A DNA stretch of 63,106 nt from an uncultured Prevotellaceae bacterium (GTDB taxonomy: Bacteria; Bacteroidota; Bacteroidia; Bacteroidales; Bacteroidaceae): NCBI GenBank assembly GCA_900318115.1, contig ONJJ01000016.1, positions 1 through 63,106 on the forward strand, given 5' to 3'. The notes beneath the pieces are model-generated. The model was not told where the DNA came from, did not search any database, and worked only from the letters and a program-made list of their open reading frames with translations. The translations under genes were made by a program, and so were the position numbers. Shown piece after piece: positions 1,587-54,136 of the stretch; position 1 is the stretch's first letter, and each line of letters begins with the position of its first letter.

Positions 1587-4448
1587 TTACAGGTTCGCGA
1601 GGGACTCGCGGATGGAGGCGATCTTCTGTTCGGCGTCGGCCTTCTTCTTGCGCTCCATCTCGACGACGACGGCCGGTGCGTTCTGCACGAAGCGCTCGTT
1701 GGCGAGTTTCTTCTCCACGCTGACGAGGAAGCCTTCGATGCGCTGAAGTTCAGCTTCCAGCTTCTGGCGCTCGGCGTCGAGGTCTATGAGGTTGCCCAGA
1801 GGTACGGCAAATTCCGTCGTTCCGACGAGGAAGCTTGCACTGCCGCTGCTCTTCTCCGTAACGGTGTTGATGGAGGAGAGATTGGCCATCTTGACAATGG
1901 CGAGGGAAAGACCCTTTGCGCGTTCGCCAATGAGGGGAAGTGCCTGATTGTCGGCAGCGGGCTGGGCATTACTGATTATTTCCAGTGTGAGCTTCTCCTT
2001 GGGTGCAATGTTCTTCTGGCTGCGGACGGAACGCACGGCGGTGATGACCTCCTTGACAACTTCGAAGTCTGCGCAGAGCTTGCGGTCGGCGTCGGTGGCA
2101 CTGGGCAGGTGGAGTTCTGCTCGCATGATGCTCTCGCCGGGCTGGCGGTCGTAGAGGGCTTGCCAGAGCTCTTCGGTAATGAAGGGCATGAAGGGATGGA
2201 GCATCTTCAGCAGGATCTCGAAGGATTGCAGCGTGGCATCGTAGGTGGCGCGATCGATGGGTTGCGGTTTGCCATCGACGTAGGCCGGCTTAATCATTTC
2301 GAGATACCAGGAGCAGAAATCATCCCAGAAGAGCTTGTAAACGGTCATCAGGGCCTCGGAGAGGCGGTACTTGGAGAAGTCGTCGGCGATTTCCTCGGCT
2401 GCTATGCGGAGTTTGGCGGCGAACCAGTCGACAGCGGTGCGTGCAGCCTCGGGCTGCTCGACGTCGGCAACGTCCCAACCCTTGACGAGTCGGAATGCGT
2501 TCCAAATCTTGTTGTTGAAGTTGCGGCCTTGCTCGCAGAGACTCTCATCGAAGAGGATGTCGTTGCCTGCAGGGGCACTGAGCATCATGCCCATGCGCAC
2601 TCCGTCGGCACCGAAGCGTTCGATGAGATCCAGGGGATCGGGGCTGTTGCCCAGCGACTTGGACATCTTGCGGCCGAGCTTGTCGCGCACGATGCCGGTG
2701 AAATAGACGTGGCGGAAGGGCATCTTCTTTTCGTACTCGTAGCCGGCCATGATCATGCGGGCGACCCAGAAGAAGATGATGTCTGGACCGGTGACGAGGT
2801 CGGCAGTGGGGTAGTAGTACGAGATTTCAGGGTTTCCCGGATTGCGTATGCCGTCGAAGAGGCTGATGGGCCAGAGCCAGCTGGAGAACCAGGTGTCGAG
2901 GGCATCCTCGTCCTGACGGAGGTCGTTCGTCTGGAGGTCGGCGTTGCCGCTCTTCTCGCGGGCTAGTTGCAGGGCTTCCTCAACGTTTTCTGCGACGACG
3001 AAGCCGCCTGTGGGCAGATACCAGGCAGGGATGCGGTGGCCCCACCAGAGCTGACGCGAGATGCACCAGTCCTTGATGTTCTCCAGCCAGTGGCGATAGG
3101 TGTTCTTGTACTTGGCGGGGTAGAACTGGATATCATCGTTCATGACGGGGTCGAGGGCTATGTCGGCCAGGTGCTGCATCTTCAGGAACCATTGCATGGA
3201 GAGCTTCGGCTCGATGGGCACGCCTGTGCGCTCGGAGCAGCCGATTTTGTTGTCGTAGTCCTCGATCTTCTCCATGAGTCCTACCTGAACCATGTCCTCG
3301 GCAATCTGGCGACGGCAAGCGAAGCGCTCCATGCCGACGTACTTCTGAAGGTCGATGACAAACTCGGCAGACACGCTCTGCTCGGCCAGCGATTTCTGTT
3401 GGGCAGTGGCGATGCGCTCGCTGAGTGTGGCGTCGTCGTTGAAGATGTCAATGGCCTCGAGGTTATATTTCTCGCCGAGCATATAGTCGTTGACGTCATG
3501 GGCGGGGGTGACTTTCAGGCAGCCGGTACCGAACTCGATGTCCACGTACTCGTCTTCGATGACAGGGATGACGCGGCCCACGACGGGCACGATGACCTTG
3601 CGTCCTTTCAGCCACTGGTTCTTCGGGTCCTTGGGGTTGATGCACATGGCCACGTCGCCCATGATGGTCTCGGGGCGGGTGGTGGCGACGACGGCGTAGT
3701 AGCCTTTTTCATCTTTATGTACTACGTTGCCTTCCCCGGCGACGAAATCGCCAGGCACGGTCTCTGCCAGGTAGTATTTCATGTAGTAGAGCTTTGTGTG
3801 CTCTTCCTTGTAGATCACTTCTTCGTCGGAGAGGGCGGTGAGAGCCTTGGGATCCCAGTTGACCATACGCACGCCTCTGTAGATAAGCCCTTTGCGATAG
3901 AGATCCACGAAGACCTTGATGACGCTCTCGCTGCGGGGACCGTCCATGGTGAAGGCGGTGCGATCCCAGTCGCAGGAGCAGCCGAGCTTGCGGAGTTGCT
4001 TGAGGATGATGCCTCCGTGCTCCTCGGTCCAGGCCCAGGCGTGCTTCAGGAATTCTTCACGGGTGAGGTCGGCTTTCTTGATACCTTGTTCAGCCAGGCG
4101 GTTGACAACCTTGGCTTCGGTGGCGATGGAGGCATGGTCCGTGCCAGGTACCCAACAGGCGTTCTTGCCTTCCATGCGGGCGTGGCGCACGAGGATGTCC
4201 TGAATGGTCTCATTCAGCACGTGGCCCATGTGGAGGACACCTGTCACGTTGGGTGGCGGGATGACCACGGTGTAGGGCTCGCGGCCATCGGGCTTGGAGC
4301 TGAAGAGCTTGTTGTCTAACCAATACTGGTACCATTTGCCCTCGACTTCGGAGGGGGAATACTTAGAAGCAAGTCCACATCCGGACTCTCCCCCCGCCCT
4401 CCCTGTTAGGGAGGGAGCGGTTTCTTTTGAAGTTTTGTTTTCGCTCAT
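1587..4448 (-). CDS. valS: Valyl-tRNA synthetase with in-frame repeat near N-terminus
   Basis: This enzyme charges tRNA-Val with valine in the cytoplasm. Its 953 residues suit bacterial ValRS. The class I signatures are present: HMGH at residues 73-76 (in [10 protein letters not shown]) and KMSKS near 593-597 ([10 protein letters not shown]). An editing domain lies between them, and a C-terminal coiled-coil arm (~885-953, [16 protein letters not shown]...) follows the anticodon-binding domain. Residues 11-24 ([13 protein letters not shown]) are not part of the family: they are the translation of a dispersed palindromic repeat at 4384-4418, which the protein tolerates as an N-terminal extension. 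The gene begins 18 bp after mazG and is probably cotranscribed with it. A later start is possible, but none of the first conserved residues ([11 protein letters not shown], from ~30) has a nearby Met. Confidence 0.97.
4384..4418 (-). repeat. Family A palindromic repeat inside valS
   Basis: This 35-nt copy of the dispersed CTCCCTCCCT-n-AGGGAGGG element is the exact reverse complement of the copy at 4487-4521. It is in frame with valS, where it encodes [12 protein letters not shown]. The inner CCCTCCCT / AGGGAGGG arms alone can form a hairpin, and the two copies together can form a 35-bp stem. Confidence 0.9.
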
Positions 4449-4466
4449 TCTGAAATATTTTTGTTT

Positions 4467-5321
4467 TTAATCCTTGTCCGGTAATTGCTCCCTCCCTAAC
4501 AGGGAGGGCGGGGGGAGAGTCAGCTCCTGTTTCTTTGCTTCTTCCCAAATCGCATCCATTTCTGCCAACGTCATCTCCGTGAGTGGCTTGCCGATGCGTA
4601 TGCTGTGTTCCTCGAGGTAGGTGAAGCGGCGGATAAACTTGCGGTTGGTACGCTCCAGGGCGTTGTCGGGGTTGAGTTTGTAGAGGCGCGCTGCATTGAT
4701 GACGGCGAAGATGAAGTCGCCGAGTTCATCAGTGCTCTTCTCCTTGTCGTTGCGGTTGAGCTCCACTTCCAGCTCGCCCAGTTCCTCGCGCACCTTGTCC
4801 CAAACCTGTTCGCGTGTCTCCCAGTCGAAGCCCACTCCGCGGGCCTTGTCCTGGATGCGATAAGCTTTGATGAGCGAGGGCAGAGCCTCGGGCACTCCAC
4901 TCAGGACGCGCTTGTTGCCGCCCTTCTCCTTCACCTTCAGCTGTTCCCAGTTCTTGAGGACTTCGTCCACGGTGATCTCCCCTTTCTCTATGCGCTCGGC
5001 CTCCGGTCCATAGACGTGAGGGTGGCGGTAGATGAGTTTGTCGCAGAGCTGGTTGCAGACGTCGGCAATGTCAAAGTCGCCCGTCTCGCTGCCGATTTTG
5101 GCATAGAAGACGATGTGGAGCAGCACGTCGCCCAGCTCCTTGCAGATTTCTTTGCGGTCCTCGCGCAAGAGGGCGTCTGCCAGCTCGTAGGTCTCCTCGA
5201 TGGTGTTCGGCCTCAGGCTCTGGTTGGTCTGCTTGCGGTCCCAGGGGCATTTCTCCCGGAGATTGTCCATGACGTCGAGCAGCCGCCCGAAGGCTTCTAA
5301 TTTTCCTTCTCTTGTGTGCAT
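4467..5321 (-). CDS. mazG: Nucleoside triphosphate pyrophosphohydrolase MazG
   Basis: MazG hydrolyses (d)NTPs to NMP and pyrophosphate, clearing aberrant nucleotides and modulating stress responses. The 284-residue protein has both MazG all-alpha repeats: an N-terminal one with NTIEETYELADALL and ELGDVLLHIVFYAKIG, and a C-terminal one with ELGELEVELNR and DELGDFIFAVINAARL, holding the acidic metal-binding residues. The conserved domain ends near EEAKKQE. The last ~16 residues ([18 protein letters not shown]) are encoded by a dispersed palindromic repeat (4487-4521), so the native stop was probably replaced by the insertion. It is first in the mazG-valS pair, with a TAACTTTG box 20 bp upstream giving a very short leader. 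Confidence 0.95.
   Translation of the reverse strand: MHTREGKLEAFGRLLDVMDNLREKCPWDRKQTNQSLRPNTIEETYELADALLREDRKEICKELGDVLLHIVFYAKIGSETGDFDIADVCNQLCDKLIYRHPHVYGPEAERIEKGEITVDEVLKNWEQLKVKEKGGNKRVLSGVPEALPSLIKAYRIQDKARGVGFDWETREQVWDKVREELGELEVELNRNDKEKSTDELGDFIFAVINAARLYKLNPDNALERTNRKFIRRFTYLEEHSIRIGKPLTEMTLAEMDAIWEEAKKQELTLPPPSLLGREQLPDKD
4487..4521 (+). repeat. Family A palindromic repeat at mazG 3' end
   Basis: This perfect 35-nt inverted partner of 4384-4418 lies inside the last codons of mazG. The pair straddles the mazG stop and the valS start with 68 nt between, so the cotranscript could fold into a long hairpin across the gene junction. Confidence 0.9.
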
Positions 5322-8643: not shown

Positions 8644-9633
8644 TTATCTACCAGCGTTTTCTCCGAACTGAGGTGCTGCGGCATTGGCGGAAGGCACTTG
8701 TCCGTCGATGAATGGCCAGCCTTGGGCGTCCCACTGAACGCGGTCCAGATAGACCTTGCGCCCGCCGTCGATGTCCTTGGCGTCGAAGCCGTGGTAGAGG
8801 ATCCAGTCCTGCCCGGCATCGTCCTGCACGATTTCGGAGCAGTGGCCGGGTCCCACGACGAGGTCGCTGCGGTGGAGCAGCATCTCGAAATGGTTCTGCA
8901 TCGCGGAGCCTCCCTTGCGGTCGAGGTAGGGGCCGAAGACGTTCTTGGCCCGTGCCACCACGAGGTGGTAGGTGCTCCGCTCGCCTTCGCAGCAGGTGCC
9001 CGCCGAACCGATGAGGTAGTAGTATCCATCGCGGTAGTGGATGTAGGTGCCCTCGGTGTGGGTGCCGGCAATCTGCACTTTCTCGGCTCCCTGGCGCACA
9101 CTCAGTCCGTCGTCGGCGAGCTCGATGCCGTAGATTCCGCGGAAACTGCCCCAGAAGAGGTACTTGCGGCCGTGGTCTTCGATGTAGAAGGGGTCGATGC
9201 TGTTCTGTACGCCTATCTCGTTGCTGATGAACAGCTTGCCTACGTCAGTGAAGGGACCTTGGGGCTGCTCGGCCGTGGCCACTCCGATGCCGCATTCCCA
9301 TTCGCCTCCCCACTCGGACTTGGAGTAGTAGAGGACGTAGCGGTCGCCGATGCGGTTGATGTCCGGAGCCCAAATGCGTCCACGGGGCACCATCTGCGGG
9401 CGGGTCTCGTCGGTGAAGCAGGTGCCCGTGAAGTTCCAGTGAACCAGGTCGCGCGAAGTATAAATAGGTGTGTTGCGGATGTTTTCCGTGGCGTAGAGGT
9501 AGAAGTCCTGGCCGACGCGGATGACGGTGGGGTCGGGCAGGCTCTGGTTGATGACGGGGTTGACGTACCACGCTTGTGCGTGAGCCATCGTCACCTGTGC
9601 GGACAGCAGTAGCAGGGTCAGGAACTTCTTCAT
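8644..9633 (-). CDS. Secreted GH43 family glycoside hydrolase
   Basis: This is a predicted arabinofuranosidase or xylosidase of family GH43 (five-bladed beta-propeller, inverting). The ATG at 9633 gives MKKFLTLLLLSAQVTMAHAQ, a clear signal peptide; the longer frame from 9714 adds a non-conserved leader. All three catalytic positions are visible: the general base Asp34 in SLPDPTVIR, the pKa-modulating Asp147 in NSIDPFYI, and the general acid Glu194 in HTEGTYIH. At 329 residues it is a single catalytic domain with no binding module or lipobox, so it is probably periplasmic or soluble. It is divergent from the HTCS regulator 225 bp away. Linkage specificity cannot be read from sequence alone. 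Confidence 0.9.
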   Translation of the reverse strand: MKKFLTLLLLSAQVTMAHAQAWYVNPVINQSLPDPTVIRVGQDFYLYATENIRNTPIYTSRDLVHWNFTGTCFTDETRPQMVPRGRIWAPDINRIGDRYVLYYSKSEWGGEWECGIGVATAEQPQGPFTDVGKLFISNEIGVQNSIDPFYIEDHGRKYLFWGSFRGIYGIELADDGLSVRQGAEKVQIAGTHTEGTYIHYRDGYYYLIGSAGTCCEGERSTYHLVVARAKNVFGPYLDRKGGSAMQNHFEMLLHRSDLVVGPGHCSEIVQDDAGQDWILYHGFDAKDIDGGRKVYLDRVQWDAQGWPFIDGQVPSANAAAPQFGENAGR

Positions 9634-12800: not shown

Positions 12801-13910
12801 ATCTTTGATGTTTACTATCAGATTGCCGGCGACGACACCGCCGCCACCCTCGGGACAGGGCTGGGCTTGGCCTACGCCAAGATGCTCGCCCGCGCTCACG
12901 GCGGCGACCTCGATGAGGTGGATTCCATCGGCGGAGGCTCGAACTTCATGCTTACGATGCCTTTGAGCGGTCCCGATGGGAAAGCCGGTGCCCAAGCTAT
13001 CCCCGTCCTGGAGGAGAACGCTTCCCTCCAAGATGAGTTGTTGAACGACGAGCTCTTGCAGAAAGATAACTCGATGGATGCGAATGAGCCCTCGGAGCAG
13101 GCGACGTCTCCTTCCGGCAAGGAAGGGCAGGGGAGTGGAGCCAAGCTCCACCGCATCCTCGTCGTCGAGGACAACGAGGAACTGCTGGCTTCCGTAAGCG
13201 AGGGACTGCGGAAGTGGTACAAGGTTCTCAAGGCGCGCGATGGCGTGGAGGCACTGGATGTGCTACAGCACCAGGATGTGGACATCGTCGTCAGTGACGT
13301 CATGATGCCGCGCATGGATGGCAACGAACTTTGCCGCACCATTCGCCAGGACATCAACTTCTCCCACCTGCCCGTCATCCTGCTCACCGCCAAGACCACT
13401 GTTGAGGCGAAGGTAGAGGGTATGCAGAGCGGGGCTGATATCTACCTCGAGAAGCCTTTCTCCATGAAGCAGTTGCACCTCCAGCTGCAGAACCTCCTGC
13501 GTATGCGCCAAAACTTCTACGAACGCATGCGGCAGCTGGATGGCTCGCATCTCTCAGAGGAACCTCTGGGTGAGTTCGGAATGAACGAGCAGGACCAGAA
13601 ATTCATGCTCCGCCTCCAGGAACTCATCCAACAGAACTTGCGCGACGAGGAATTTTCCATCGATGTCCTGGCCGAGCAGATGAACATGAGTCGAAGTAGC
13701 TTCTATCGCAAGATCAAGGCGCTGACGGACCAGACTCCCATCGATTTCCTCAAGACCCAGCGCTTGGAGCGCGCCGCCTACCTCCTTCGTCGGGGAGGTC
13801 GCATCACGGAAGTTGCCGCCCAGGTCGGCTTCACCTCCAGCAGCTACTTCGCCAAGTGCTTCCGTGCCAAGTTCGGAGTCCTCCCGAAGGAATACGTTGC
13901 CGGCGAATAG
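9858..13910 (+). CDS. Hybrid two-component system sensor/regulator (HTCS)
   Basis: This one-protein inner-membrane sensor and transcription activator is typical of glycan loci. The ATG at 9858 (MFRRYTLLYICSLLLLL) gives a signal peptide and 1350 residues. The periplasmic part is a two-component-regulator beta-propeller (repeats such as GDIWFGGSFGLYVY and GNVWIGTDAGIYRY), then a Y_Y_Y domain and a membrane segment (AWAYLIYVLLLAVVLVYGV). The cytoplasmic part has HisKA (His826 in FFINLVHEIRTPLS) and HATPase (MMNLLGNALKYA, DDGPGIP, GTGLGLAYAK). A receiver domain (phospho-acceptor Asp1147 in VVSDVMMPRMDG) and a C-terminal AraC-type helix-turn-helix (IDVLAEQMNMSRSSFYRKI) complete it. Every key residue is intact. 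It most likely binds an oligosaccharide released from the locus's substrate and activates the operon from 15914. Confidence 0.96.
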   Translation: MFRRYTLLYICSLLLLLAQPLGASRLAFKSYMAVDGLSDNSVLCGLRDSYGFMWLGTSNGLNCFDGKHNTVYRNMVGTDVSFENNLITSLLEQDGDIWFGGSFGLYVYERQSNTFSRFRVRTKYGVVVSSTVQHMERTPNGLIWICTLGQGIFFYDTASGTLRQDSRHNAFITDIVVGADDHVYLTTLDGHLLTYDTDGRYERQYAVPGYVSDKSRLCVERLGARLFVGCEQGLFSLNTSSDAVESVPLPQNVGFIRDLLSMDGNLVMGTDHGLYEYDPSTLALERLDVGEHVLTDDLINALLTDADGTLWVLTEHGGVCYRPASPSSLEVIDLPPLMGSGTRNMVRAFASSADGNVWIGTDAGIYRYDLHHPASVGAAPVSTFPSEVNTLLVDGSSLWVGTQREGLYVIDTSSGARRHYTYSPDRPYTLPSNVVNCLLRTRSGDIYVGTSWGLRRFDRATEQFMGFLEINSMTAFVSLAEDAEGNIWAASANHGLFRKDRASSSFRNYVAHADDPGSLPSNAITCVCCDRQGTVWVTAKEGGLCRYVPESDSFESYGTSDQFFARSRIYFLQEDAQQNLWLGTENGLVRIDADRQHFTETVSFPDDKQREQKPYNATCRLSDGQILMGSNNNLLRMNPSRMQISAQTSPVYIMAVSLPFVADGKKELAEKGLDHPLYVSDEITLAYRDNSFTLHFASPRFDSRRLLRYEYMLQGFDKNWARGTENAEATYTNLPPGTYEFLLREAGNDNPDSYARLRMIILPPWYRTAWAYLIYVLLLAVVLVYGVRRANRAFVRRYDKRLEEFRLTQEKENFQSKINFFINLVHEIRTPLSLISLPLEQMEDSPLSDADRRHVGSIRRNMNYLLGITNQLLDFQKAENGKVNLHLTGTDVGELLNQIFSQFDDAMESQGKRLQLQLPETAIVAKLDRDKVSKVMMNLLGNALKYARTEVILRLEQTDDEHFRISVIDDGPGIPPAEREHIFDVYYQIAGDDTAATLGTGLGLAYAKMLARAHGGDLDEVDSIGGGSNFMLTMPLSGPDGKAGAQAIPVLEENASLQDELLNDELLQKDNSMDANEPSEQATSPSGKEGQGSGAKLHRILVVEDNEELLASVSEGLRKWYKVLKARDGVEALDVLQHQDVDIVVSDVMMPRMDGNELCRTIRQDINFSHLPVILLTAKTTVEAKVEGMQSGADIYLEKPFSMKQLHLQLQNLLRMRQNFYERMRQLDGSHLSEEPLGEFGMNEQDQKFMLRLQELIQQNLRDEEFSIDVLAEQMNMSRSSFYRKIKALTDQTPIDFLKTQRLERAAYLLRRGGRITEVAAQVGFTSSSYFAKCFRAKFGVLPKEYVAGE

Positions 13911-13922
13911 CCCCCTTCCCCT

Positions 13923-14120
13923 GGTGTATCGCCTCCTGCGCCTCGATGTATAGTCTCCTGCACCCTGATGTATCGCCTCCTACACCCTGATGTATCGCCT
14001 CCTACACCCTGTTGTATCGCCTTCTGCACGCTGATGTATCGCCTTCTGCACGCTGATGTATCGCCTCCTGCGCCTCGCTGTATCACCTCCTGCGCCCTGA
14101 TATATCGTCCCCTGTCCCCT
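13923..14120. repeat. 22-bp minisatellite, nine units
   Basis: Nine contiguous 22-bp units follow the HTCS stop by 12 bp, with consensus GATGTATCGCCTCCTGCACC plus CT. Units 3 and 4 are identical; the outer units have diverged. The period is not a multiple of three, so it is not a peptide repeat. With no spacers between units it is not a CRISPR array. Confidence 0.95.
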
Positions 14121-14545
14121 GATGGGTTCGCCTGAAGAGTCGCATCTTATTCTTGGGCTTATGCATTATAATATGGTTCGCGCTTACGCGTGCGCGTGAT
14201 AGCGAGGGCCTCGAAATCACGTCATTTCGTCACAGGAATCGATGTTTCGTTCAGAACTATTTGTGAATGAGTAACTTATGCGTGTGACGTAAGGTGTGAC
14301 GAATTGCGGAAATACGTGACGAAGTGACGAAAAGCATGTTTTTTGCCGTAAATTTGGACAAAAAAGTCACAAAGTCACACCACGTCACACCTTTCGTCAC
14401 ATTGCACTCGGCAGATATTCAGGGCTTTGTGAGCGCCTGTGACGAAGTGACGTGACTTTTCCTTTCCTTACGTGTTTCGGGCTAAGTGAAATTCGTGGAA
14501 TTCGTTGTTCTAAGAATAACCGAAAGTTGAGTTGCGTGTTTCGGA
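14121..14545. repeat. Non-coding region rich in GTGACG/CGTCAC inverted motifs
   Basis: No credible gene is seen. GTGACGTAAGGTGTGACG (14284-14301) and its near-perfect inverted copy (14383-14400, one mismatch) flank further GTGACGAAGTGACG and GTCACAAAGTCACACC blocks, and another block follows at 14440-14453. The whole stretch could fold into a long imperfect hairpin. It separates the HTCS gene from the convergent GH43 lipoprotein gene, so termination is one possible role. Confidence 0.7.
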
Positions 14546-26766: not shown

Positions 26767-26800
26767 GACTCTCCCCCCGCCCTCCCTTTAGGGAGGGAGC
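26767..26800 (-). repeat. Family A palindromic repeat
   Basis: A 34-nt copy in the same orientation as 4384-4418, starting 20 bp after the DUF4973 stop. The copies at 27109 and 27169 lie in the opposite orientation, giving a facing inverted arrangement that spans the intergenic region. Confidence 0.85.
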
Positions 26801-26844
26801 GATTACCTAATAAGAACAATAAGTAATGATAAAAATAAGTTCCT

Positions 26845-27000
26845 AAAGTTTGCCTCCGTAGGGACATACCCCGTGTATGTCCGAAAAGAATACATCCACG
26901 GTCGCAGGTGTCGGTGGTGGTATTTCGGACATACACGGGGTATGTCCCTACGGTGGGTGTTATCAGTGTATCGGAAGATGTCCCTACGGAGGCAAACTTT
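26845..27000. repeat. 156-bp MITE-like element with nested inverted repeats (family B)
   Basis: The outer arms are perfect 22-nt inverted repeats (26845-26866 and 26979-27000, AAAGTTTGCCTCCGTAGGGA plus CA). Inside are perfect 31-nt arms (26856-26886 and 26923-26953) containing GGGACATACCCCGTGTATGT, with a 36-nt loop between. No reading frame is present, and no flanking target duplication is obvious. It occupies most of the 293-bp gap between the DUF4973 gene and the GH92 gene. Confidence 0.85.
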
Positions 27001-27039
27001 CCGAAGTCATTTTTTAACGCCTACTAATCAAAAAATGCA

Positions 27040-29535
27040 ATGAAAAAATTATTCGTTTTATTATTTCCCATATTATCAACATTTTCTCTCCTGTCCGCAA
27101 AGGTATTCGCTCCCTCCCTTCAAGGGAGGGCGGGGGGAGAGTCCGCCCTCCAGTCCGCAAAGGTAACCGCTCCCTCCCTCGAAGGGAGGGCGGGGGGAGG
27201 GTCCACGGGGGGAGGGTCTTCTTCTTCCTCCTACGTCAACGTCCTCGTCGGCACGATGTCCAAGCACTCCCTCAGCACGGGCAACACCTACCCGGCCATT
27301 GCCCTGCCCTGGGGCATGAACTTCTGGACGCCGCAGACGGGGCGAATGGGGGATGGATGGGCTTACGTCTATACCGAAGACAAATTGCGCGGTATCAAGC
27401 AGACCCACCAGCCGTCGCCGTGGATCAACGACTACGGACAGTTTGCCTTGATGCCCACCACACGGACCGTCTTCAAGGAGGACGACCGGGCCAGTTGGTT
27501 CAGCCATAAGGCTGAGGTCGCTACACCTTATTATTATAAGGTTTACCTTGCCGACTGGGATGTCGTGGCCGAGCTGACCCCGACAGAGCGCGCTGCCATG
27601 ATGAGGCTGACCTATCCAGCTACCGATGAGGGGCGGTTGGTCATCGATCCTTTCGATAAAGGATCATACGTCTTTGTCGATCAGGACCATCGCCGTGTGC
27701 TCGGCTACACGACGAAGAACTCCGGCGGCGTGCCCGAGAACTTCAAGAACTACTTCGTCATCGAGTTCTCTCATCCCATCTCTTTCGTCGCCACCGCCGA
27801 TGGCGACCAGTTGCAAGAGGGGCGCGTCGAACTGAAGGCAGACCACGCCCAGGCTGTCGTGGGCTTCCCCACGCTCCGGCGAGGCGAGCAGGTCACGCTG
27901 CGCATTGCTTCCTCTTTCATTAGCTTTGAGCAGGCTCAGCTGAATCTGCGCGAGCTGGGAACACGTTCCTTCGATGAGGTATGTGCCGCTGGCCGCCAGC
28001 GCTGGGATGAGGTGCTGGGCCGCATCGAAATTGAGGATCCTGACATTGATCACCTCCGCACCTTCTATTCCTGCCTCTATCGCAGTGTGCTCTTCCCCCG
28101 CTCGTTCTTCGAGTACGGAGCAGACGGCAAGCCTGTCCACTACAGCCCCCACACAGGTGAAGTCCTGCCGGGCCGCTATTTCACCGACACCGGTTTCTGG
28201 GATACCTTCCGTTGCCTCTTCCCCCTCTTGAACCTCGTTTATCCCGAGATGAACATCCAGATGCAGGAAGGCCTCGTCAATTGCTACAAGGAAAGCGGCT
28301 TCCTGCCCGAGTGGGCCAGCCCCGGCCATCGCGGCTGCATGGTAGGCAACAACTCCGCCTCCGTCGTCGCCGACGCCTACCTGAAATTATCCTCCCCCGG
28401 TATTTTGCCCGCCAGTTCTTCCGCCAGTGTGCCCGGCGGTTTTCCCGCCGGGGCCACCACCCCTTATGACATCGAAGCCCTCTGGCAAGCCGTCACCCAC
28501 GGCGCCAACGCCGTGCACCCCCGTGTCTCCTCCACCGGTCGCCTCGGTTTCGATTACTACAACCGCCTCGGCTATGTCCCATACGACGTCAAGATCAACG
28601 AGTCCGTGGCCCGCACTCTCGAATATGCCTATGACGACTGGTGTATCTACCAGCTCGGCAAGAAACTCGGCAAGCCGGAGGCCGAGCTGAAGCCGTTCCG
28701 CGAGCATGCCATGAACTACAAGAACGTCTTCGACCCTGAAACCCGCCTCATGCGCGGCAGGATGAAAGACGGCAAGTTCCAGGCCCCCTTCAATCCCCTC
28801 AAGTGGGGCGACGCCTTCACCGAAGGCAATGCATGGCACTACACCTGGTCCGTCTTCCACGACCCCGAAGGCCTTATCCGCCTGATGGGCGGCCGCGAAT
28901 CCTTTGTCGCAATGCTCGACTCCGTCTTCAACGTCCCGCCCCTCTTTGATGAGAGCTACTATGGCGGCGTCATTCATGAGATCCGTGAGATGCAGATTAT
29001 GAATATGGGTAACTACGCTCATGGCAACCAGCCCATCCAACACATGATCTACCTCTATGACTGGGCCGCCGAGCCTTGGAAGGCCCAACAGCGTGTACGC
29101 GAAGTCATGGACCGCTTCTATACGCCGCTGCCCGATGGCTACTGCGGCGATGAGGACAACGGCCAGACCTCTGCCTGGTATGTCTTCTCTGCCCTCGGCT
29201 TCTATCCCGTCTGTCCCGGTTCAGGCGAGTACGCCCTCGGCACCCCCTATTTCCACAAGGCCACCCTCCACTTCCCCAACCAGAAGGACCTCGTCATCAC
29301 CGCCTCCGCCCCTGCCACCTCCGCCGTGGTGGCCTCGCCGTCCGGCGAGGTCTCCTCCTTCCTTCCCCCCTTCATCCAGCGAATGACCTTCAATGGCGCC
29401 CCCTATGACCGTAACTTCCTTCGCCACGAAGACCTCGTGCGCGGCGGTAGCATCACCTTTGAACTCGGCCAGCAGCCTAATCGCCAGCGAGGCACCTCGC
29501 CCTCTTCTGCTCCCTACAGCTTCAGCAAGGAGTAA
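27040..29535 (+). CDS. GH92 alpha-mannosidase with in-frame repeat insertions
   Basis: GH92 enzymes are calcium-dependent exo-alpha-mannosidases that trim mannose from N-glycans or yeast mannan. A signal peptide (MKKLFVLLFPILSTFSLLSA) is followed by two 20-residue repeat-encoded copies (APSLQGRAGGES, APSLEGRAGGGS) and a Gly/Ser linker. The family then starts at YVNVLVGTMSKHSLSTGNTY. Catalytic-domain landmarks are CYKESGFLPEWASPGHRG (~415-428), GNQPIQHMIYLYDWA (~662) and GDEDNGQTSAWYVFSALGFY (~703), the last holding the likely general-base aspartates. Further in-frame hairpins lie near residues 448-475, 765-770 and 815-821. It is 24 bp upstream of the GH76 gene. Despite the insertions the frame and catalytic motifs are intact. 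Confidence 0.95.
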   Translation: MKKLFVLLFPILSTFSLLSAKVFAPSLQGRAGGESALQSAKVTAPSLEGRAGGGSTGGGSSSSSYVNVLVGTMSKHSLSTGNTYPAIALPWGMNFWTPQTGRMGDGWAYVYTEDKLRGIKQTHQPSPWINDYGQFALMPTTRTVFKEDDRASWFSHKAEVATPYYYKVYLADWDVVAELTPTERAAMMRLTYPATDEGRLVIDPFDKGSYVFVDQDHRRVLGYTTKNSGGVPENFKNYFVIEFSHPISFVATADGDQLQEGRVELKADHAQAVVGFPTLRRGEQVTLRIASSFISFEQAQLNLRELGTRSFDEVCAAGRQRWDEVLGRIEIEDPDIDHLRTFYSCLYRSVLFPRSFFEYGADGKPVHYSPHTGEVLPGRYFTDTGFWDTFRCLFPLLNLVYPEMNIQMQEGLVNCYKESGFLPEWASPGHRGCMVGNNSASVVADAYLKLSSPGILPASSSASVPGGFPAGATTPYDIEALWQAVTHGANAVHPRVSSTGRLGFDYYNRLGYVPYDVKINESVARTLEYAYDDWCIYQLGKKLGKPEAELKPFREHAMNYKNVFDPETRLMRGRMKDGKFQAPFNPLKWGDAFTEGNAWHYTWSVFHDPEGLIRLMGGRESFVAMLDSVFNVPPLFDESYYGGVIHEIREMQIMNMGNYAHGNQPIQHMIYLYDWAAEPWKAQQRVREVMDRFYTPLPDGYCGDEDNGQTSAWYVFSALGFYPVCPGSGEYALGTPYFHKATLHFPNQKDLVITASAPATSAVVASPSGEVSSFLPPFIQRMTFNGAPYDRNFLRHEDLVRGGSITFELGQQPNRQRGTSPSSAPYSFSKE
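27093..27212 (+). repeat. 60-bp tandem duplication containing two family A repeats
   Basis: Two 60-bp units (27093-27152, 27153-27212) each begin GTCCGCAAAGGT and carry one palindromic element (27109-27144, 27169-27204). The unit is a multiple of three, so GH92 reads through as two similar 20-residue blocks between signal peptide and catalytic domain. Confidence 0.9.
28432..28452. repeat. In-frame hairpin in GH92 gene
   Basis: CCCGGCGG and CCGCCGGG form a perfect 8-bp stem with a 5-nt loop inside an Ala/Ser/Pro/Gly-rich insert (SSPGILPASSSASVPGG) between VADAYLK and YDIEALW, which are normally almost adjacent in GH92 proteins. Confidence 0.6.
29333..29350. repeat. In-frame hairpin in GH92 gene
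   Basis: CCTCGCCG-TC-CGGCGAGG is a perfect 8-bp palindrome translated as ASPSGEV in a surface-loop-like stretch. Confidence 0.55.
29487..29500. repeat. In-frame hairpin near GH92 C-terminus
   Basis: GCGAGG-CA-CCTCGC is a perfect 6-bp palindrome encoding part of RQRGTSPSS in the non-conserved C-terminal tail. Confidence 0.5.
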
Positions 29536-42575: not shown

Positions 42576-43403
42576 TTATCTGCGTACGATGAACCAAGGG
42601 TTATGTAGGTCCTCCTTATTATATATAAGGGGCTGACCCGTCTGCGCATTTATGACCTCGCAGCCAGCAGCACGCGCTATGGCATCTCCCGCTGCGGTGT
42701 CCCATTCCATGGTGGGTGCATGGCGTGGATAAATGTCTGCCTTGCCTTCAGCCACGAGGCAAATCTTCAGGCTGCTGCCACTGCTGATGAGTTGCAGGTC
42801 GGGGTGCTGCTTGCGTAGTTCATTAATGAATGCCTCTGTTTCGGGGCTAAGGTGGCTGCGTGAGGCGACAACCGTAAATGGTCGATTTGTTTCTGTAGGG
42901 CCATACCCCTGTGTATGGCCGAGGTTATCGGCTACCCCTATCGGCCATACACAGGGGTATGGCCCAACGGAGCTTACGATCACTTTTCTAATACCTTCTT
43001 GTTGAATGCCGTAGTACAATTCATTCTTCACAGGCACATAGATCACCCCCAATACCGGCACAGCGTCCTCCACCAGCGCGATGTTCACCGTGAATTCGCC
43101 GTTTCGCTTGATGAATTCCTTGGTGCCGTCTAATGGATCAACGACCCACAGTCGGTGCCAGGTGCGGCGTGTGGAGTAGGGTAGTTGGGTACCTTCCTCG
43201 CTCAGGACGGGAATCCCCGTGGGTTCGAGAAAGGACATGATGCGGGCGTGAGCGGCCTTGTCTGCACGTGTCAGTGGCGAGTTGTCCGCCTTACGTTCGA
43301 TGCCGAAGTCTGCATTCGGGTCCGTGTAGATATTCATGATGTCGCGTCCGGCTGCCAGGGTGGCCCGGATAGCGATATTGAGGAGTGCTGTTGTCGTTTC
43401 CAT
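42576..43403 (-). CDS. cysQ: 3'(2'),5'-bisphosphate nucleotidase CysQ with in-frame palindrome
   Basis: CysQ removes the 3'-phosphate of PAP, a by-product of sulfate assimilation, with Mg2+. The inositol-monophosphatase-type motifs are intact: EE at 69-70 (VLSEEG), DPLDGT at 89-94, and the late WDTAAGDAI. The 275 residues exceed the usual ~245-260. The excess is residues ~145-171 (VGPYPCVWPIGVADNLGHTQ, then GYGPTE), which is the translation of a perfect 25-bp inverted repeat. It sits after IQQEGIRKV and before NRPFTVVASRSHLSPE, where relatives have a short variable loop, so activity may be kept. The -7 box lies only 6 bp before the ATG, suggesting a nearly leaderless transcript. Confidence 0.93.
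   Translation of the reverse strand: METTTALLNIAIRATLAAGRDIMNIYTDPNADFGIERKADNSPLTRADKAAHARIMSFLEPTGIPVLSEEGTQLPYSTRRTWHRLWVVDPLDGTKEFIKRNGEFTVNIALVEDAVPVLGVIYVPVKNELYYGIQQEGIRKVIVSSVGPYPCVWPIGVADNLGHTQGYGPTETNRPFTVVASRSHLSPETEAFINELRKQHPDLQLISSGSSLKICLVAEGKADIYPRHAPTMEWDTAAGDAIARAAGCEVINAQTGQPLIYNKEDLHNPWFIVRR
42898..42965. repeat. Family B palindromic element in frame inside cysQ
   Basis: Perfect 25-bp arms (42898-42922 and 42941-42965) contain GGGCCATACCCCTGTGTATG, with an 18-nt spacer. The arms resemble those of the intergenic element at 26856-26953 (GGGACATACCCCGTGTATGT). It reads through without a stop in the cysQ frame. Confidence 0.9.
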
Positions 43404-53068: not shown

Positions 53069-53947
53069 ATGAATAAGAAGACTATTATCACCCTTGCAGG
53101 AACCGTCATTGTCCTCCTCTTGGTGGGCATGGGTTACTTGATTTATTCGCTCAACAAGTCCAATGAGGAGAATAAACAGATGTTGGAACTCGCCGAGATG
53201 GACAAACGCGAGATGGAGAATGAATATGCCGATTTTGCCCGTCAGTACAACGAGATGAAGACGCAAGTCAACAACGACTCATTGATGGCTCAGCTGGAGC
53301 AGGAACAGCAGCGGACTCAGGAACTCCTGGAGGAACTGCGGCGCACGAAGAACAATGATGCGGCAGAGATTACCCGACTGAAAAAGGAATTGGCCACCAT
53401 GCGCCAGGTGCTGAAGAGCTTTGTAGCAGAAATCGACTCGCTGAACCGCCTGAACGAACAGCTGATGGGCGAGAACGAGAACTTGCGGCAGCAGCAAGTG
53501 CAGCAGCAACAACAGATTTCCACCCTCAGTGAGGAGAAGGAGTCGCTGTCCGACAAGGTGGCTATTGCCAGTCAGCTGGATGCCACAGGGTTGCACATCA
53601 GTGCTCTGAACAAACGTGGCAAGGAGGCCAAGAAGACCAAGGATGTCAAGAAGTTCCAGATCAGCTTCAGCGTGGCTCGGAATGTCACCGCCGCAGCTGG
53701 TAATCGAACCATCTACGTCCGCATCCTCAAGCCAACGGGCGAGGTGGTGAATGGCGGAGGTACCTTCCCCTTCGAGAACCGCAACCTGGAGTATTCCATC
53801 CGTAAGGATATCGAATACAACGGCGAGGAGACGCCCGTCACCGTTTACTGGGATGTCAACGAAATGCTCATCGCCGGTCTGTACCGCGTGATGATCTTTG
53901 CCGACGGAAACAACATTGGAAGCGGCAGCATATCGTTCGAGAAGTAG
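53069..53947 (+). CDS. Membrane-anchored coiled-coil protein with C-terminal beta domain
   Basis: The ATG at 53069 gives MNKKTIITLAGTVIVLLLVG, an N-terminal membrane anchor (~6-27), and 292 residues. A long coiled coil follows (~35-175: EENKQMLELAEMDKREMENE, EQEQQRTQELLEELRR, LNRLNEQLMGENENLRQQQ). After a basic linker (NKRGKEAKKTKDVKK) comes a beta-rich domain (~195-292: FQISFSVARNVTAAAGNRTI, NGEETPVTVYWDVNEMLIAG). Bacteroidales carry similar proteins of unknown function, often labelled as SMC-like because of the coiled coil. It is probably periplasmic, anchored in the inner membrane. I infer a structural role only. Confidence 0.8.
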   Translation: MNKKTIITLAGTVIVLLLVGMGYLIYSLNKSNEENKQMLELAEMDKREMENEYADFARQYNEMKTQVNNDSLMAQLEQEQQRTQELLEELRRTKNNDAAEITRLKKELATMRQVLKSFVAEIDSLNRLNEQLMGENENLRQQQVQQQQQISTLSEEKESLSDKVAIASQLDATGLHISALNKRGKEAKKTKDVKKFQISFSVARNVTAAAGNRTIYVRILKPTGEVVNGGGTFPFENRNLEYSIRKDIEYNGEETPVTVYWDVNEMLIAGLYRVMIFADGNNIGSGSISFEK

Positions 53948-53984
53948 ACCCACCCCCCGCCCTCCCTGTGAGGGAGGGAGTGGT
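53947..53984 (-). repeat. Family A palindromic repeat after coiled-coil gene
   Basis: GACCCACCCCCCGCCCTCCC then TGTGAGGGAGGGAGTGGT overlaps the end of the stop codon (TAG at 53945-53947). It faces the inverted copy at 54101-54136. Confidence 0.85.
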
Positions 53985-54100: not shown

Positions 54101-54136
54101 ACTCCCTCCCTCACAGGGAGGGTGAGGGGTGGGTCT
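54101..54136 (+). repeat. Family A palindromic repeat before gatC-like gene
   Basis: ACTCCCTCCCTCACAGGGAG then GGTGAGGGGTGGGTCT is the inverted partner of 53947-53984 and ends 3 bp before the permease ATG, where it would affect the ribosome-binding region. Confidence 0.85.

Follow-up and report, generated by a model that had tools for sequence, protein, structure and literature searches.

Palindromic inserts that genes carry in frame are best known from Rickettsia. In the portions of the literature available to us, Rickettsia palindromic elements (RPEs) are described as palindromic sequences of ~150 bp that lie in frame in unrelated genes and encode a conserved peptide (PMC10969869; PMC3733652). 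The accessible part of a report on enterobacteria describes small mobile sequences that are inverted-repeat-like and have ORFs fused to genes (PMC2759123), and the corresponding part of a study of Nematomorpha mitochondria describes perfect inverted repeats inside protein-coding genes, with both arms encoding conserved protein regions (PMC6649704). Among titles and abstract openings, we found no recognition of the family described below in Bacteroidales; descriptions of Porphyromonas gingivalis MITEs and most subscription journals lay outside this comparison.

The locus considered here lies in a 63,106-nucleotide window (the whole stretch of DNA that was analysed) from a group of uncultured gut bacteria, whose closest named relatives are largely of ruminant origin; our evidence consists of draft genomes and their sequences. 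At the junction of mazG and valS, both of which are recognised by Pfam, two 35-nt repeat arms lie 68 nt apart and are 100% complementary (35/35), with the coordinates and reading frames that the original prediction had given them (Table 1). The prediction also regarded them as copies of a dispersed repeat, and 59 copies were found across the host genome. Because the palindromic core has 34 exact matches and the tail has 59 matches with up to two mismatches, against none for the reversed pattern, the occurrence of the family is not due to chance. With up to one mismatch, the tail is present in 64 of the 139 genomes of the genus, the densest of which has 111 copies.

Table 1. Repeat copies of the window and the two genes of the mazG-valS junction
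Feature	Position	Strand	Remarks
valS, valine--tRNA ligase	1587..4448	-	953 aa, N-terminal extension; Pfam, 1gax
REP-like arm within valS	4384..4418	-	encodes 12-residue peptide, ValS residues 11-22, near ValS start
68-nt spacer	4419..4486	no strand	has mazG stop 4467-4469, valS start 4446-4448, valS codons 1 to about 10
mazG, nucleotide pyrophosphohydrolase	4467..5321	-	284 aa, C-terminal extension; Pfam
REP-like arm in mazG last codons	4487..4521	+ (mazG on -)	encodes 12-residue peptide near MazG end
Further copy	26767..26801	-	21 nt from 3' end of upstream ORF
Copy in GH92 glycosidase ORF 27040-29535	27109..27143	+	in frame, N-terminal region
Second copy, GH92 ORF 27040-29535	27169..27203	+	in frame
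Further copy	53947..53981	-	touches 3' end of upstream ORF; faces copy at 54101
Copy at start of EIIC-GAT permease ORF	54101..54135	+	in-frame ATG directly after

All 59 host-genome copies were examined with their flanks. Where neighbouring copies lie no more than 400 nt apart (n=19), 17 are inverted with their tails pointing outwards, one is -- and one is ++. In a comparison of 17 pairs, the two arms of a pair resemble each other more closely than shuffled arms do (3.24 versus 5.38 mismatches, p 0.0008), and five of these pairs have identical arms. One contig of the host genome (C67, at the end of locus L173) stops one base past a repeat copy; the assembly may break at the repeat, in which case copies would be undercounted. 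We note two further repeats in the window: a second dispersed inverted-repeat family (arms e.g. CCTCCGTAGGGACATACCCCGTGTATGTCC), found between two copies of the first at 26831-27014 and alone at 42892-42971, and a tandem array with a 22-nt period at 13897-14138.

The original prediction treated the in-frame placement as exceptional, but most copies in this genome are placed in this way: 37 of the 59 overlap 30 coding-scored ORFs, the score being codon usage trained on 22 long ORFs of the window and not the output of a gene finder. These copies occupy N-termini, linkers or loops and, in a single case, a C-terminus; 19 lie within 60 residues of the start (one being an arm of the L169 pair), 17 are internal and one is C-terminal. 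Of the 22 copies outside coding-scored ORFs, 15 are found 60 nt or less from the 3' end of such an ORF. For 28 of the 30 repeat-bearing ORFs, a Pfam family was found with an E-value no higher than 0.001 (in L168 below the curated cut-off of the family); at this threshold, L162:2444-3079 and L169 gave none. Besides valS and mazG, the recognised hosts include formyltransferase, Sua5/YrdC, RuvB, quinolinate phosphoribosyltransferase, GH92, M16 peptidase, outer-membrane-barrel, FecR and aminotransferase-CbiA-GATase_3 proteins; names that go beyond that of the Pfam family, such as NadC and CobD-CobQ-like, are our presumption. Repeat pairs separate domains in two proteins (aminotransferase from CbiA and DHODB_Fe-S from Fer4_20), and a single copy lies between APH and RapZ_C. 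Frame offset 0 is used by 25 of the 29 copies in gene orientation and by seven of the eight in the opposite orientation, although the repeat has one or more other open frames in either direction; since the copies are related, these counts are not independent trials. The family is probably translated as extra residues, mostly in one fixed reading frame. The copy at the start of the permease ORF, though counted among the 37, is probably untranslated because an in-frame ATG directly follows it.

MazG was found in 125 of the 139 genomes of the genus that were searched, and the junctions of the best 30 loci and of 80 named loci of a second collection were read. After removal of duplicates, mazG and valS lie on the same strand in 32 loci; 28 are comparable, and four were set aside because the insert was degenerate or of another kind or the gap exceeded 800 nt. 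Read by eye, 12 of the 28 are filled, with the repeat in frame in valS, and 16 are empty and short (27-39 nt), with ValS starting MEISSKYSP, MELASKYSP or near-identically. The filled junctions carry two variants of the repeat, one encoding a 12-residue peptide and the other TPLPAREGQGGGS or alike, and differ from the empty ones by replacement of ~30 nt. The mazG-side arm forms the last mazG codons in the host and some relatives, and lies 3' of the stop codon in L042 and L043; the mazG-valS junction of L048 has a single arm only. As proposed, the pair adds residues to both proteins: relatives without the DNA also lack the residues, and no repeat-free relative with the same terminal residues was found among the junctions compared. 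On this comparison, the added ValS and MazG residues are real differences among relatives. The host genome (filled) and G088 (empty) are sisters on both gene trees (100/99 support). Since at least eight filled/empty changes are needed on each of the two trees (a count made with no shuffled control, on trees with weak support at 13 and 12 of 29 inner branches), gain, loss or exchange of the junction repeat is, as far as the trees show, frequent. On the same number of changes we reject a single ancestral insertion inherited vertically. At the junction of G023 (L040), a different repeat-like insert (CACAGATTTCACAGATT...) occupies the same place.

The copies might instead be untranslated leaders of mis-annotated genes whose true starts lie downstream, an error in start annotation against which the available text of a 2013 survey cautions (PMC3733652). 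We examined 16 N-terminal ORFs for starts past the repeat, leaving out two more of this class. Six of the 15 that have a Pfam domain do permit such a start; the other nine have no in-frame ATG, GTG or TTG between the repeat and the start of the domain. In six of these nine, the first start past the repeat comes just 1-8 residues into the Pfam match, which does not firmly exclude a late start. The other three have a wide margin: ValS (next start at residue 61, domain from 38), the NadC-like protein (55/43) and the DUF4369 ORF (74/43). For valS, where no in-frame start lies between the repeat and the catalytic domain, the repeat is therefore almost certainly translated; the alignment with the best structure match, the solved valyl-tRNA synthetase 1gax, begins at residue 26, past the repeat-coded residues. 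Internal copies and pairs cannot be leaders at all. We give the leader reading very little credence and infer that the repeat is translated in most cases. A second alternative accepts the residues as a by-product and assumes that a regulatory RNA hairpin (uncoupling, attenuation or mRNA protection) is selected at mazG-valS. The mRNA strand of the junction does have a strong predicted fold (-89.1 kcal/mol, z -10.5), whereas a 131-nt stretch at the empty junction of G088 folds like shuffled sequence (z 0.14); the arms are identical over 35 nt, and the mazG stop and valS start lie within the loop. However, comparable hairpins are predicted in the middle of ORFs (L163, -89.3 kcal/mol; L156, -104.7 kcal/mol), and translation of L163 would need to pass through its hairpin. 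Moreover, identical arms are not unique to the junction, G088 has no arm and L048 one, and in L042 and L043 the mazG-side arm comes after the stop. We regard selection for such a hairpin as quite unlikely. Because comparable predicted hairpins occur mid-ORF, uncoupling is not the general role of the hairpin; the prediction that it serves to uncouple mazG and valS is unsupported as it was stated, and uncoupling at this single junction is possible.

Typical REPINs mobilised by a RAYT transposase would account for the prevalence of inverted neighbouring copies with outward tails, and REPs inside ORFs are on record in the available text of the survey (PMC3733652). The transposases speak against this. 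The host genome has one full-length Y1 match (L031) and two partial ones, and the RAYT model was run on two Y1 proteins, L031 and one from G138. The tested 114-aa stretch of the G138 protein weakly matches REP_Tyr_transpos (22.6 bits, cut-off 80) but fits IS200 far better (78.6, cut-off 55), and L031 matches IS200 below the cut-off and does not match REP_Tyr_transpos. Two of the three Y1 contigs of the host (C53 and C26) are without a repeat copy. Y1 matches do not track the repeat across genomes: G010, G011 (92% complete), G022, G028, G030 and G034 have the repeat and are listed without a Y1 match, and the repeat-bearing G097 and G114 fall outside the 62 Y1-matching genomes, all of these being incomplete genomes. 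Y1_Tnp searches, the repeat-flanking loci and NCBIfam on the two Y1 proteins, all in draft genomes, identified no mobilising enzyme; they gave no support to a RAYT link, and we consider a typical REPIN improbable. Neither a target-site duplication nor a clean insertion could be made out at the filled and empty sites compared, which yielded no recent, clean pair of the two forms. A search of the host genome with 10.5 kb of G088, made to find a clean empty site, gave a near-identical counterpart for the first 1.9 kb only. Further short matches fall at about 8969-9089 of this query and are candidates for the second dispersed inverted-repeat family of the window.

Inside genes, copies often occur as inverted pairs that keep the frame and measure 113 or 116 nt. 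Pairs were collected from all host copies, 30 of 41 loci of G088 and 30 of 111 of G138, with extra regions from G138, G001, G006, G010, G017 and G018 selected by pair length. Among 30 distinct short pairs (98-119 nt, host and seven other genomes), 27 have a length of 2 mod 3, and 22 are enclosed by an ORF that shows coding signal to either side of the pair; among 22 longer pairs (127-189 nt) the figures are six and three. Read in the coding direction, 28 of 29 short units keep the common frame open, and 24 do so both ways; by an arithmetic estimate about half would be expected to be open in reverse with random spacers, and the actual spacers are related. At six orthologous sites, the arms are 31-35/35 identical and the flanks 74-97%. 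In five of them the spacer has the same orientation (in one, L297/L357, with only weak likeness). At the sixth, an outer-membrane-protein site compared between G088 and the host, the spacer occupies its place in inverted orientation: it is 40/43 identical when reversed and not in the same orientation, both arms are identical, the flanks are 95% and 94% identical, and the sequence is open both ways. A spacer flanked by inverted repeats can be placed the wrong way round when short reads are assembled. The unit could be an invertible coding cassette, in which the 43- or 46-nt spacer flips between the 35-nt arms, exchanges 14-15 residues without closing the frame in either direction and could yield protein variants within a population; with one inverted site in six comparisons of draft assemblies, we put this forward as a doubtful, although not negligible, possibility. 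A 155-nt repeat pair in G088 (L326, contig C48) has a spacer that looks partly duplicated in frame, and its encoded peptide is longer.

The predicted structure of the M16 peptidase (mean pLDDT 79.2) falls below 50 at residues 233-265, nearly the repeat-coded 230-267. This is one of three such segments (the others being 1-27 and 308-311); the loop is variable in relatives and the alignment has 15 rows, which may by itself account for the low pLDDT. The model of the histidine kinase (mean pLDDT 51.6) was unusable. In the loops of CobDQ, the kinase and M16, different linkers, in part repeat-like, or no insert at all are found in relatives, and the kinase of G015 and G071 and the CobDQ of G108 are without the repeat. 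These loops are, by sequence comparison, generally insertion-tolerant places, and the presence of other inserts at the same loops weakens the case for a special function of the repeat. The CobDQ linker of L210 (G018) and L211 (G017) encodes another repeat-like peptide (NDESRSARNDES ... HSSFVIRHSSL), with a shorter form in L213 (G129); this is perhaps a second translated repeat family.

We think it likely that the repeat is a non-autonomous palindromic MITE/REP-like element, which host genes carry in frame as they do RPEs. The open frames of the element would let genes carry copies in frame. Its commonest in-gene unit, a 35-nt inverted pair around a 43- or 46-nt spacer, would encode 12 residues, 14-15 variable residues and then 12 residues, and because the unit is palindromic the flanking peptides would be the same whichever way it is inserted. 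Single arms at gene ends would supply the first or last codons, and the junction-spanning version at mazG-valS would give ValS its N-terminal and MazG its C-terminal extension. We infer that the element is mobile and that open frames, together with tolerance of its peptide as a flexible segment, allow it to persist in genes. Such spread would be neutral or selfish, filtered by selection for an open frame, and would bring the host no specific benefit. The preferred frame, the in-frame unit length and the two-way openness make selection for harmlessness when translated testable. In annotating starts in such genomes, repeat-coded residues should not be trimmed off.

The element resembles REP, BIME and REPIN sequences in its short palindromes (20-40 nt), many copies, inverted pairs and frequent position near gene 3' ends. 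It differs from the predominantly extragenic REPs and REPINs in that just 22 of the 59 host-genome copies lie outside coding-scored ORFs, and from REPINs in that an associated RAYT was not identified in these draft genomes, two Y1 proteins having been compared with the RAYT model. Its ends, read by eye, are GACTC or GACCC and GAGTC or GGGTC with varied neighbours, unlike the GTAG and CGTC REP superfamilies, whose end tetranucleotide was not seen as a consistent tag. Like a MITE, it has terminal inverted repeats and no transposase gene, and its 113- and 116-nt units fall within 70-300 bp. With the enterobacterial small mobile sequences, as far as the available account goes, it shares a small inverted-repeat-like form and frames fused to genes; unlike them, the unit is REP-built and belongs to Bacteroidales, and neither a parent insertion sequence nor a target-site duplication was found. 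The Nematomorpha mitochondrial repeats, in the part of the study available, are likewise perfect inverted repeats in coding genes, but the arms here are added residues. RPEs, on the descriptions available, are similar in lying in frame in unrelated, apparently functional genes, and the present repeat is likewise absent from the same gene in relatives (mazG-valS, the kinase and CobDQ). The host here is of another phylum, the unit consists of a pair of 35-nt arms enclosing a spacer, which in most cases is open whichever way it is read, and the likeness is one of mode of occurrence, drawn from RPE descriptions and not from compared sequences. Gut Bacteroidales show the same in-frame habit, some of their genomes having dozens of copies, in genes that include valS, mazG and those of formyltransferase, RuvB and NadC types, which suggests that mobile palindromes can give rise to new protein termini and linkers more widely.
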